From Candidatus Poseidoniaceae archaeon (GTDB lineage: Archaea; Thermoplasmatota; Poseidoniia; Poseidoniales; Poseidoniaceae): a DNA stretch of 64,000 nucleotides. The number at the start of each line of letters is the position of its first letter. Position 1 is the stretch's first letter. The stretch spans positions 1-64,000 of the forward strand of contig JAOMTZ010000002.1 of assembly GCA_028356125.1 (NCBI GenBank), in the 5' to 3' direction. A program made the position numbers and the translations under genes. Below the pieces are notes generated by a model. It was not told the origin of the DNA, ran no database searches, and saw nothing but the letters and a program-made list of their open reading frames with translations. Below, piece after piece: positions 1 to 59,603 of this stretch.

Positions 1-2
1 CT

Positions 3-1214
3 CTAGGTGAGGTTGAAACCGATTCTGGGATTCTTGAATTACAATTGAAAGGAGCAGGAAAGACGCCATACTCGCGTTTCGCAGACGGTAAAGCCGTTTT
101 ACGATCATCGATTAGGGAGTTCCTATGCAGTGAAGCAATGCATCACCTAAGAGTGCCTACAACTAGAGCGTTATCACTTGTTACTACAGGAGAAGATATA
201 ATGCGGGACATGATGTATGATGGAAATCGTGAATTTGAACCAGGTGCAGTTGTTTGCCGTATAGCGCCTAGTTTTATCCGGTTTGGAAGTTTCCAAATTC
301 ATGGTTTGATGAAAGATAATGAAACATTACGCACATTAGTAGAACACACTGTGAAAAACCATTTCCCTGAGTGCAATGTAGAATCTGATGAAGGGATAAT
401 TCAGTGGACTAAAGTAATTGCAAAGAATACTGCAGAAATGATTGCTCACTGGATGCGCGTTGGTTTTGTTCACGGAGTAATGAATACTGACAATATGTCA
501 GTTCACGGACTAACTATCGATTACGGACCATATGGATGGCTCGAAGATTACAATCCGGGATGGACACCCAATACTACCGACTCATCTCACAGAAGATACC
601 GATATGGCAATCAACCACAAATAGGGGCCTGGAATTTAGCAAGATTACTTGAGGCTGTATCACCGTTAATGGATAGCCCTGACAGGTTGAAAGAAGTTTT
701 AGAGTTCTATATTTCAAGTTATGAAGAATGCAATGACAACATGTGGGCTGCCAAATTAGGAATTTCAGAGTTTGCTGAATCAGACAATGAATTGATTTCT
801 GAACTCAATGTATTGTTACAGGAAGTCGAAACTGACATGACCATATTTTTCAGAGAATTGTGTAAAATTGAGCAACCGGACATAACTGAGCTAAAGTTCG
901 CATTTTATGATGATGAGAATATTCCTGCAACTGAATGGAACTTATGGCTGGCGAAATGGTGGACTAGAGTAAATTCCAATCCAGAACGAGAATTGATGCG
1001 ACTAAACAACCCGAAGTATGTTCTTCGTAACTGGATGGCTCAGTTGGCTATCGATGCTGCAGAAAAAGAAGACTATTCGGTTTGTGAATCAATATTCGAT
1101 TTATTGAAGTCACCATATGATGAACATCCAGAACAGGAGACTGAATGGTATCAAAAGCGTCCAGAGTGGGCAAGGCATCGTGTTGGATGCTCAATGCTAT
1201 CTTGCTCAAGTTAA
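3..1214 (+). CDS. selO: Protein adenylyltransferase SelO (YdiU/UPF0061), 5' truncated by window edge
   Basis: Frame is open from base 3 (LGEVETDSGILELQLKGAGKTPYSRFADGKAVLRSSIREFLCSEAM...), the SelO signature; the ORF-track TTG start at 45 is internal; ends ...LSCSS. Confidence 0.9.
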   Translation, partial: LGEVETDSGILELQLKGAGKTPYSRFADGKAVLRSSIREFLCSEAMHHLRVPTTRALSLVTTGEDIMRDMMYDGNREFEPGAVVCRIAPSFIRFGSFQIHGLMKDNETLRTLVEHTVKNHFPECNVESDEGIIQWTKVIAKNTAEMIAHWMRVGFVHGVMNTDNMSVHGLTIDYGPYGWLEDYNPGWTPNTTDSSHRRYRYGNQPQIGAWNLARLLEAVSPLMDSPDRLKEVLEFYISSYEECNDNMWAAKLGISEFAESDNELISELNVLLQEVETDMTIFFRELCKIEQPDITELKFAFYDDENIPATEWNLWLAKWWTRVNSNPERELMRLNNPKYVLRNWMAQLAIDAAEKEDYSVCESIFDLLKSPYDEHPEQETEWYQKRPEWARHRVGCSMLSCSS

Positions 1215-1240
1215 TTTGCATGCGAAATAAATATACAGAT

Positions 1241-1520
1241 TGGTAAAGAAATACATCGAATATATTTCTGAAAATCCCTTAGTCTGAAACAGGCCTTAAT
1301 ATGTGCACCGACGATGGATAGTGCATGGAGCAAATACAAATTGCAAAGACCTTCAAGAAAAACAACTCGGCTACAGCGGTGAAGTTTGTGCTGGTAATGG
1401 CAGTCATTTTCCTAATGACTTTCATTGTCAGTCTATTCCCGATCATGATTACAATCATGTTCCTAACCGCACCAGCGATCATCATGAACATTGGATGGTT
1501 GATGTTTGCAGGCGCTGTGT
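1241..1520. repeat. Direct repeat copy 1 (tandem duplication, about 280 bp)
   Basis: Near-identical to 1573-1851: tggtaaagaaatacatcgaatatatttctgaaa...gatgtttgcaggcgc[t/a]gtgt; 5 substitutions and one 1-nt indel by eye. Confidence 0.95.
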
Positions 1521-1522
1521 AA
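1325..1522 (+). CDS. 65-aa hydrophobic small membrane protein, copy 1
   Basis: MEQIQIAKTFKKNNSATAVKFVLVMAVIFLMTFIVSLFPIMITIMFLTAPAIIMNIGWLMFAGAV; identical peptide encoded in copy 2; an overlapping minus-strand ORF cannot be formally excluded. Confidence 0.65.
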   Translation: MEQIQIAKTFKKNNSATAVKFVLVMAVIFLMTFIVSLFPIMITIMFLTAPAIIMNIGWLMFAGAV

Positions 1523-1572
1523 TCAGTCAGAATTATCAAATTCGCATATACGCATTGTTATTGATATACTGA

Positions 1573-1851
1573 TGGTAAAGAAATACATCGAATATATTTC
1601 TGAAATCCCTTAGTCTGAAACAGGCCTTAATATGTGGACCGACGATGGATAGTGCATGGAGCAAATACAAATTGCAAAGACCTTCAAGAAAAACAACTCG
1701 GCCACAGCGGTGAAGTTTGTGCTGGTAATGGCAGTCATTTTCCTAATGACTTTCATTGTCAGCCTATTCCCGATCATGATTACAATCATGTTCCTAACCG
1801 CACCAGCAATCATCATGAACATTGGATGGTTGATGTTTGCAGGCGCAGTGT
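1573..1851. repeat. Direct repeat copy 2
   Basis: See copy 1 at 1241-1520. Confidence 0.95.
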
Positions 1852-1853
1852 GA
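1656..1853 (+). CDS. 65-aa hydrophobic small membrane protein, copy 2
   Basis: 100% identical peptide to 1325-1522; all nucleotide differences silent; different stop codon (TGA versus TAA). Confidence 0.65.
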   Translation: MEQIQIAKTFKKNNSATAVKFVLVMAVIFLMTFIVSLFPIMITIMFLTAPAIIMNIGWLMFAGAV

Positions 1854-2501
1854 CTATCTCTGCCCGTAGAGAAGGTTGGTCAATCTTTCAGATTTGACAG
1901 TAGTTTCTACATCTGTCAATCTGCGTTCGATTTCAATGACTTGCATAACTATCCTCTTGGTAGTGTCCTGAGTCGCAGGCCCCTTTACTTCCAACTCTTC
2001 TACAGTTTCATCAAAGTATTGATCTGGTTCATTGTAACTGGTTACTAAAACTCGAAATAGGCCAGCTAAGAAACCAACGATGACTGCGATTACTAGGCTG
2101 GTTACGCTTAATATTGATTCAGATAATTCAGAGGCACTGATGTCCTCATAGACGCTGACAACAATTATCAAGAAACCGAAAAGCTGGGCAAGAACATTTC
2201 CAATTGTCGAACTAATAATAGCAGAACCAAAAGCGTCAGATTTGGTAAGTCCTAAGTTGGAACTCGCATAGGCGCCAACCATAGCGACTGCAGGAAAAAT
2301 AGACATCATTAATGAATAATTAATCAGAATCGAGAATGTATCGCTAGAACCTTCAAGATGAGTAGATGTTGCAGAAATTATTCCCCAAAAACCTAGGAAG
2401 AAACCGATTACTAGGGCTGAACGGAGACTACTCTTTGTTTCTTTGACTACCACAATTTTCGTTCTAAGGCCACGTATTTGAATATTTATCCTAAACACCA
2501 T
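1854..2501 (-). CDS. Hypothetical multi-pass membrane protein
   Basis: 215-aa ORF with several hydrophobic segments. Confidence 0.7.
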   Translation of the reverse strand: MVFRINIQIRGLRTKIVVVKETKSSLRSALVIGFFLGFWGIISATSTHLEGSSDTFSILINYSLMMSIFPAVAMVGAYASSNLGLTKSDAFGSAIISSTIGNVLAQLFGFLIIVVSVYEDISASELSESILSVTSLVIAVIVGFLAGLFRVLVTSYNEPDQYFDETVEELEVKGPATQDTTKRIVMQVIEIERRLTDVETTVKSERLTNLLYGQR

Positions 2502-2529
2502 TATGCACTGAGTGCGTTAACGCACAAGC

Positions 2530-3213
2530 ATGGCTGTCGATTCTCAGTTGCTATGGTTTCTCGGCCTAGGGGCTTTTGCGTTCATCACAGTGATGGCAAT
2601 AAAGCCGTTTCATGCATACCTGATGTCGAAAGGCTGCGAGAACATGGTAGCTGTTTACTACAACCGCAAAGTCGCACATATGGTAGCGGGTGGAGTTCCG
2701 CTAATATTGTGCCCAATAGTATTCACAGACCCAATATATCCACTTCTAGGCGGACTTCTCGGTGCAGCCGGCTTAGCAGCTGCTCACATGATGAATAGAC
2801 GACTCTGGTGGATGCAAACTGAACAGAACATGAACGATGCAACGTTTGCATTTATGCTTGGAATCTCAGTATTCGCTCTGTGGCATTACTTGGATGATGC
2901 TTGGCTGGCGATTCTTCCAGCCCTATTCATGGCATATGGAGATGGAGTTACTGGAATTATTCGCAACAAGATGTTTGCAAAACGAACCAAGAGTGCATGG
3001 GGTAATCTTGGAATGGCGATTCTTTGTATTCCTCTTGGCTACCTAATCGGTAAGAATGCAGACCCTTCAATTCCATTATGGGGAGCACTTTCTGGTGCTC
3101 TTGCTTCATTTGTTGAGCGCTACGAGTTTGGACCAATCGATGATAACGTACTGATTGTAATCGCTTCAAGCATATTGATTGCAGCGGGCGTTCACTTTGG
3201 ACCGCTACTGTGA
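2530..3213 (+). CDS. Phytol/dolichol kinase-like (CTP-dependent lipid kinase family) membrane protein
   Basis: RKVAHMVAGG ... AYGDGVTGIIRN ... KSAWGNLGM motifs and multiple TM segments. Confidence 0.65.
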   Translation: MAVDSQLLWFLGLGAFAFITVMAIKPFHAYLMSKGCENMVAVYYNRKVAHMVAGGVPLILCPIVFTDPIYPLLGGLLGAAGLAAAHMMNRRLWWMQTEQNMNDATFAFMLGISVFALWHYLDDAWLAILPALFMAYGDGVTGIIRNKMFAKRTKSAWGNLGMAILCIPLGYLIGKNADPSIPLWGALSGALASFVERYEFGPIDDNVLIVIASSILIAAGVHFGPLL

Positions 3214-3573
3214 TCAAGACATTATTTCGTCTTGCTCAGCATCTTCGACTAGAATGAACTCGAATTCTCCAGTCCTACTGTCATAATCAATACTTGAGAA
3301 TACTGCCTTCATCTGGCGGTCTTCGAATGGGTCGTGGAATATAGGCTGATCTTTTCGGAAAATAGCTAGGATTCTCTTGTACTGGTCCATATCCATCTTA
3401 CCCGTGATTGTGTAAACTGCGGATTCTGCACCTTCATCAAGAAGGTCATCTCCTTCATTGCCACGAATAACTGTGCGCTGTAGTCGACGCTTTACGTTCA
3501 TGTGAACATTGCAATCTTCGATTCTTTCCCAATCTTCACCCATAGTGGTGATGAAACACTCGTTATTCTCCAT
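3214..3573 (-). CDS. Hypothetical protein (119 aa)
   Basis: Intact ORF abutting neighbouring genes. Confidence 0.6.
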   Translation of the reverse strand: MENNECFITTMGEDWERIEDCNVHMNVKRRLQRTVIRGNEGDDLLDEGAESAVYTITGKMDMDQYKRILAIFRKDQPIFHDPFEDRQMKAVFSSIDYDSRTGEFEFILVEDAEQDEIMS

Positions 3574-3621
3574 AGAGCAGACTGTAGGCCCATATGTGAT
3601 AGTAATTTCTACTACGAAATC

Positions 3622-4119
3622 TCAGTTGGCAAGTTGGTTAAGCATGTCCTCAATAGTTTCAGGGTTAGCCTCTTTATCCTTATTTGAAGCCAACTTACGT
3701 CCCAATACATTGCATCCGAGATAAGAGAACATCTGGCGCATTGCCATGATCACGTGTTCGCCACCGCCACCACTGTGTGTTGCAAGACCAACCTTACGGG
3801 AATTGAATAAAGCACGGAAATCTTTCCACTGTGTACTGAGCCATGCAACCGCATTGTTTAGAGTTGGAGGCATTGAACCATTATATTCAGGGGCAATAAC
3901 CATCCAGGAATCTGCAGAGGACATTGCAGCCTTTAGTTCAGCCATTCCAGGAACTACATCTAATTCCTTAGAACGAGCAACTGTGAACATAGGAAAATCT
4001 AATTCCGCAAGATTGACTATGTCTGCTTCATGTCCCATTTCACGTGCAGCATCAGCAAATTTCCCGGCAAGAGCGAGGTTGTTATCGGAAGTTGCAGTGA
4101 TCATCAGTATCTTGGCCAT
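3622..4119 (-). CDS. NADPH-dependent FMN reductase family protein
   Basis: Flavodoxin-like fold: MAKILMITATSDNNLALAGKFADAA...WMVIAPEYNGSMPPTLNNAVAWLS...KVGLATHSGGGGEH. Confidence 0.85.
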   Translation of the reverse strand: MAKILMITATSDNNLALAGKFADAAREMGHEADIVNLAELDFPMFTVARSKELDVVPGMAELKAAMSSADSWMVIAPEYNGSMPPTLNNAVAWLSTQWKDFRALFNSRKVGLATHSGGGGEHVIMAMRQMFSYLGCNVLGRKLASNKDKEANPETIEDMLNQLAN

Positions 4120-58597: not shown

Positions 58598-59603
58598 CGA
58601 TGTCTGCCTTGGTACCAGAAGTTGCTACTCCTGCCGCCTTTGCTTTCTCGACTAACTCGTCTTTCTTCAACTTCATCAAACCGGCTTCAGTTTCACCAGA
58701 TTCTTTTGGTGCAGGTGCTTCTTCAGCAGGTGCTTCTTCAGCAGGTGTTTCTTCAGCAGGTGCTTCAGCGGCTGGTGTTTCTTCAGCAGGTGCTTTTGCG
58801 ACCTTTTCCTTCTCAGAAATTGATTCCATTGCTTCAGCTGCTGCAAGAAGATCGCCTTCAACAGGTGCTTCTTCATCGGTTCCTTCTTCGCCTGCTTCTG
58901 CAATTGCTGCTGCTTTCTTTGCTTTGAGTTCTGCATCTTGACGTGCTTCCTCTGCATGAATGTCGTCTAATGTTGGTCCCTTTTCGGTAACAACACCAGT
59001 CTGCAATAATTGGCTCTTACGGATTACAACATTTCGGCATGGGTAAATCGACTTGACAGCATTTCTGATATCAGTCTCTAATTCCCCACCTAGCATTGCT
59101 TCTTGCAACTTTGAATAGTTGGACTTAGCAGCACAAGCACGAATAATCTCTGCTGACTTAGCACGCATTGCTTGCTTAACGGAAGTTTGGCATCGGCGCT
59201 CTGTAATCATCAAAGGCTTCAGTCTAACCAGGTACCCATCAGTAGTTACTACATCTACTACATCGTCAATCTTACCACGGTAGCGGCGGATTTGACGGCG
59301 TGTGTGGTCGGACTGGTGCGCATGACCCACAAATGTTGTCAGAGCATCTTGCCCTACAACTTCTGTAACGCGGAAGCGAAGTAAAACATGCATCTTAGTG
59401 AAGTCGCCACTGAATTCTTGTTGGGTCATTTCGTAAATGCGCCCCATAATGTGGTCATCTGTCTCTCCGATCGTCTCTCCGATTCGCTTGAAGTTCCATG
59501 GGTGTCGTGGTGCACGAATTGTGAACCATCGCTTGTTCTTCCACTTGTCACGCTGCTTACGTGCTGCTGCACGTGCCTTTGCACTCAACTTCTTTGCTGC
59601 CAT
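58578..59603 (-). CDS. Ribosomal protein eS1 (S3Ae) with acidic PAEE repeat linker and SAP-like C-terminus
   Basis: KWKNKRWFTIRAPRHPWNFKRIGETIGET...RRYRGKIDDVVDVVTTDGYLVRLKP; C-terminus GLMKLKKDELVEKAKAAGVATSGTKADIVARLLE. Confidence 0.9.
   Translation of the reverse strand: MAAKKLSAKARAAARKQRDKWKNKRWFTIRAPRHPWNFKRIGETIGETDDHIMGRIYEMTQQEFSGDFTKMHVLLRFRVTEVVGQDALTTFVGHAHQSDHTRRQIRRYRGKIDDVVDVVTTDGYLVRLKPLMITERRCQTSVKQAMRAKSAEIIRACAAKSNYSKLQEAMLGGELETDIRNAVKSIYPCRNVVIRKSQLLQTGVVTEKGPTLDDIHAEEARQDAELKAKKAAAIAEAGEEGTDEEAPVEGDLLAAAEAMESISEKEKVAKAPAEETPAAEAPAEETPAEEAPAEEAPAPKESGETEAGLMKLKKDELVEKAKAAGVATSGTKADIVARLLE
58711..58795. repeat. Imperfect 15-bp tandem repeat (gcttcttcagcaggt) within eS1 tail
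   Basis: Five or so units encoding (A/T)PAEE. Confidence 0.85.

Follow-up and report, generated by a model that had tools for sequence, protein, structure and literature searches.

Introduction

Small membrane proteins with one or two transmembrane segments, such as CydX, AcrZ and KdpF, are found in bacteria. A second described system with which the present locus can be compared is that of RudS, a tRNA 4-thiouridine desulfidase named for its TudS-DUF1722 architecture (PMC11417400). Overexpression of RudS in Escherichia coli lowers both the tRNA s4U and the growth delay under UVA, and RudS genes are often found in light-responsive operons of bacteria, with the Pseudomonas operon of PhrB, LitR and RudS being a light-associated example (PMC11417400).

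The locus discussed here lies in a 64-kb window (the whole stretch of DNA that was analysed) from a Marine Group II archaeon and carries two tandem copies of a gene for a 65-aa hydrophobic protein, for which the name mp65 is coined here. In size, hydrophobicity and the possession of a strongly conserved short motif, mp65 is like the CydX, AcrZ and KdpF type of protein; in contrast, no sequence relationship exists and no partner complex has been identified beside mp65. The likeness to the bacterial RudS operons lies in RudS as the predicted regulon partner, from which a stress-linked regulation is inferred. Unlike in these operons, the shared element resembles an archaeal core promoter, photolyase lacks the element, a LitR/MerR-type controller was not found, and there is a membrane microprotein in addition. 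A third comparison is with the SelO neighbourhood. In most genomes, mp65 is found immediately downstream of SelO, although the mp65 promoter is separate and mp65 persists where SelO has decayed or lies elsewhere. The reading favoured here, to which we give an even chance, is that mp65 belongs to a small RudS regulon as a membrane microprotein specific to this lineage, and that the regulon probably serves the response to near-UV or redox stress.

The Duplicated Gene and Its Coding Strand

The features of the locus are collected in Table 1. An earlier note on this DNA had reported a tandem duplication of about 280 bp with exclusively silent changes in the open reading frame and a difference in the stop codon, and alignment of the copies bears this out. 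The copies, with a start-to-start spacing of 331-332 in the 64-kb window, differ by five substitutions and one indel, which is an A in the 5' flank. One substitution (C/G) lies in the promoter, and the coding differences between copy 1 and copy 2 are GCT/GCC (codon 16), AGT/AGC (codon 36), GCG/GCA (codon 51) and GCT/GCA (codon 64). All four are silent and at the third position; the two different stop codons lie at the extreme edge of the repeat. Under a simple model without selection, with a transition weight of 4:1 and 27% of random point changes being silent, the probability of four out of four silent changes is p ~0.005. This is the sole long repeat in the 64 kb, except for a low-complexity coding stretch at 58676-58915 with imperfect 15-bp repeats, a probable minus-strand coding region. 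Both mp65 copies are intact and have complete promoters, and the arrangement is a recent tandem duplication.

Table 1. Features at the start of the window (positions of the 64-kb window).
Feature	Position	Strand	Remarks
SelO (protein adenylyltransferase)	3..1214	+	truncated at the 5' end by the contig start; usually found upstream of mp65
Tandem repeat copy 1 (promoter and CDS)	1241..1520	+	
Promoter element of copy 1, AAACAGGCCTTAATATGTGCACCGACGATG	1287..1316	+	starts 38 bp before ATG
mp65 copy 1, 65-aa membrane microprotein	1325..1522	+	stop TAA
TCAGTCAGAATTAT, following copy 1; seems to be left over from the promoter of the downstream gene	1523..1536	+	
Tandem repeat copy 2 (promoter and CDS)	1573..1851	+	~98% identical to copy 1
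Promoter element of copy 2	1618..1647	+	one substitution, at -19
mp65 copy 2, 65-aa protein identical to that of copy 1	1656..1853	+	stop TGA
215-aa membrane protein	1854..2501	-	no library match
227-aa polytopic membrane protein	2530..3213	+	no convincing library match; usual downstream neighbour

The note had rightly cautioned that antisense open reading frames (1279-1539 and 1610-1822) share the same third positions, and it is the relatives that settle the plus strand. In the sense frame, dN/dS is mostly 0.06-0.2 for close pairs across species, and the pairwise differences at codon positions 1, 2 and 3 amount to 4673, 2023 and 6809, respectively. Since position 2 is the most conserved, the plus strand is the coding strand; an antisense gene would predict sense position 1 to be more conserved. 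The antisense frame is interrupted by stops in 4 of 20 sequences from several species, and its dN/dS is equal to or above that of the sense frame in the pairs compared, so a minus-strand protein gene is rejected. The proposed selection on the plus-strand membrane peptide is thus upheld, and we are close to certain that the mp65 frame is a real gene. The alternative of a structured RNA also found no support in Rfam, which gave no match above the gathering score and only two sub-threshold matches in 1-4000.

The mp65 Family

mp65 is a previously unclassified, genus-restricted membrane microprotein family. A profile search detects it in 21 of the 27 genomes of its own genus in the Poseidoniales, which is probably MGIIa-K1, and a protein search also finds it. 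Outside this genus, a convincing copy was observed in just one other genome of the family (G119, from another genus), on a 2.8-kb contig, and mp65 was not found in the remaining genomes of the order that were searched. Two candidate distant homologues were spurious, as one (L061) overlaps a protease gene and the other (the G318 match) contains three stops. In Pfam, NCBIfam, PHROGs and PADLOC, no match above the curated cut-off was obtained, with weak scattered matches only (best Pfam match E 0.006, in one member), and literature searches found the family nowhere described. A viral origin was also rejected, as no relative is present among viral contigs. A contig filed under a Gemmatimonadales MAG (L066, DLTN01000060.1) has mp65 with neighbours as in G002 and appears to be a contig from Marine Group II that was misbinned.

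The protein has a short charged N-terminus, followed by approximately 40-45 residues that are uncharged in all relatives, and a lone arginine close to the C-terminus in most of them. The best conserved part is the C-terminal motif P..MN.GWL.F. As charges flank the hydrophobic stretch on both sides, a hairpin with both ends inside is suggested. mp65 is probably such a membrane hairpin with its charged N-terminus inside, a topology that is not confirmed by AlphaFold2, which models one long helix with low pTM (0.43 and 0.38).

A Promoter Element Shared with RudS

Each copy of the gene is preceded, from 38 bp before its ATG, by an element with the consensus AAACaGGc-TTaATAT-N4-ACCgAC. Across the genus, conservation of the mp65 promoter is strong between about -43 and -5, with the TTaATAT part at about -29 to -23. 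Between -20 and -1, the mean conservation is 1.16 bits, against 0.55 for the downstream gene in the same genomes, where the TATA-like part is conserved and the -20 to -1 region much less so. The spacing between the element and the ATG would fit a leaderless message of the archaeal kind, and the conserved 5' DNA looks like the core promoter of such a predicted message. The earlier idea that each copy has its own leader stands as far as conserved regulatory DNA is concerned, but this DNA does not look like a transcribed leader.

A search of the window's own genome with the element returned the two mp65 copies and one further site, which lies upstream of a TudS-DUF1722 (RudS) gene. A pattern scan of 27 genomes gave matches only at mp65 and RudS, and a backwards control pattern gave zero matches in the same genomes. 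In addition, a matrix trained on mp65 promoters alone placed its top site 38-39 bp before the start in all 12 RudS loci with an intact 5' end, with scores of 11-31 and a next best score of at most 5.4 in the same loci. This matrix was applied to selected loci and to the 64-kb window, in which the best other site scores 9.4; genome-wide scans were pattern searches. The pattern scans and the matrix placement at RudS together indicate that the element is a real shared signal with a wider range than mp65. Two incomplete genomes (G014 and G008) have RudS with the element, and no mp65 was found in them.

A relaxed family-wide search added ABC1/UbiB-type kinases with the element in three genomes of the genus (G006, G009 and G015) and, from another genus, the RudS genes of two genomes (G036 and G085). 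In a genus without mp65, the element is present at -38 of a 77-aa hydrophobic protein (G065:C15:224309-224338, L134), which is a possible functional counterpart of mp65. Most other two-mismatch matches outside the genus look like background, because the backwards control also gives scattered matches. Photolyase was rejected as a regulon member, as no element was present in 11 loci from nine genomes (best score 3.5); it was not detected in the window's own genome, which is 65% complete. The SelO promoters among the loci scanned and the gene downstream of mp65 also lack the element. Sequence statistics thus show that the mp65 promoter belongs to a distinct class that is common to RudS and, in some species, also to an ABC1/UbiB-type kinase, and mp65 and RudS are very probably under shared regulation.

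The conserved positions cover the BRE- and TATA-like parts of a leaderless promoter, and the invariant C-terminal motif of mp65 suggests a fixed packing partner. Both observations agree with another explanation, namely that mp65 belongs to a membrane complex as a small accessory subunit made constitutively, and that the element is merely a strong core promoter, shared with RudS without any stress meaning. A general strong promoter should, however, match many genes, whereas the 27 genomes yielded mp65 and RudS only and the relaxed search within the genus added mainly ABC1. Moreover, the conservation reaches -18 to -5, past the TATA box, unlike in the downstream gene. We therefore regard the constitutive subunit as possible but doubtful.

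Stress Context and Proposed Role

In this genome, genes for TspO, a SnoaL-like protein, a quinone-reductase-like protein, TrhO and a ChrR-type cupin are found near RudS; this gene content is consistent with redox or light stress, and the promoters of these genes lack the element. The cluster at G000:C40 (L092:579-6771), in which SDR, Rieske, SnoaL, TspO, quinone reductase, an HxlR regulator, RudS, TrhO and a ChrR-type cupin lie together, resembles bacterial light/redox stress clusters. The HxlR regulator, which lies beside RudS here, was rejected as the controller because it is not conserved beside RudS in relatives.

Given the same unusual promoter, the most informative clue at this locus, mp65 probably takes part in one stress response together with RudS. 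In the RudS regulon favoured here, mp65 would be made from a leaderless mRNA and controlled like RudS. The signal might be near-UV/light or the ensuing redox stress, a proposal that takes its light link from bacterial RudS and could equally well hold or fail. Our favoured guess for the protein itself, which is more speculative, is that it sits in the membrane as a stress-induced membrane-stabilising or enzyme-regulating subunit, and the two copies would simply raise output.

Neighbouring Genes and History of the Duplication

mp65 is single-copy in every other genome, and two copies are found only in this one, so conservation of the locus does not extend to the duplication. At silent sites the copies have diverged by 0.10, whereas the values for three genes relative to G025, the nearest sequenced species, are about 0.3-0.56. 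As the value between copies is the lower, the duplication is probably young and later than the split from G025. G025 matches copy 2 at the stop and at the three distinguishing coding sites that it covers, indicating that copy 1 carries the changes. Since its coding changes are all silent, copy 1 appears to be under constraint as well, unless gene conversion keeps the copies alike. Homology of the 5' flanks of the two copies beyond 1241 was not above that of shuffles. Contig ends within the mp65 gene in G025 and G013 were considered as hidden duplications and rejected, as the numbers are too small and the SelO contig of G025 also ends elsewhere.

The sequence directly after copy 1, TCAGTCAGAATTAT, matches the junction that in relatives leads from mp65 into the promoter of the downstream gene, whose 227-aa product is dolichol-kinase-like by eye only. 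Copy 2 abuts the inserted gene for the 215-aa membrane protein. This gene is also present between mp65 and the downstream gene in G007 and G023 and is not there in other relatives. In G007 (L003:1100-1400), an extra small minus-strand open reading frame apparently lies between SelO and mp65, which suggests that small insertions have repeatedly entered the region between these two genes.

The duplication occurs in a single draft genome and lies 1.2 kb from the end of a contig, which raises the question whether two strain variants were merged during assembly; such an artefact would concern the duplication and not the gene. It is unlikely, as the copies differ at six sites in addition to the indel, and a simple head-to-tail join does not explain the changed remnant of the downstream promoter in the spacer.

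The proximity to SelO, which is linked to protein AMPylation and redox, could also mean that the two are a functional pair. mp65 lies directly 3' of SelO in 17 of 21 genomes, usually with the gene for the 227-aa membrane protein next, and of the six genomes of the genus in which mp65 was not detected, four are also without detected SelO. However, mp65 has its own promoter, with an element that is missing from the SelO promoters scanned. The two genes also come apart: in G022 (contig C39, L063), SelO is a C-terminal remnant and the adjoining mp65 is intact, they sit on separate contigs in G002, and in G005 and G006 SelO occurs without mp65. We consider a SelO pair improbable. A toxin-like peptide had also been proposed. 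Such a peptide, or a holin-like one, with copies as in type I toxin loci, would fit the short N-terminus with its lysines and the hydrophobic stretch after it, but this is very improbable, as no antitoxin partner gene is seen, inheritance is vertical and syntenic over a genus, matches to holin or defence models are at chance level without any credible family match, and no viral contig encodes mp65.

Conclusions

This work gives a name to a gene family that is unannotated and comes from an uncultured archaeal lineage of the sunlit ocean, and an independent regulatory signal ties mp65 to an enzyme with a role that has been tested for its bacterial form. Only tentatively, the RudS regulon proposed here can be extended to a near-UV/redox regulon of Marine Group II with a dedicated core promoter, which an alternative TFB or else a specific activator might read. 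It would comprise a tRNA s4U desulfidase, a UbiB-type kinase and a lineage-specific membrane microprotein with tandem amplification in some populations. If the proposed regulon is real, it would offer a testable entry to the sunlight response of Marine Group II archaea, a response that is otherwise hard to study without cultures.
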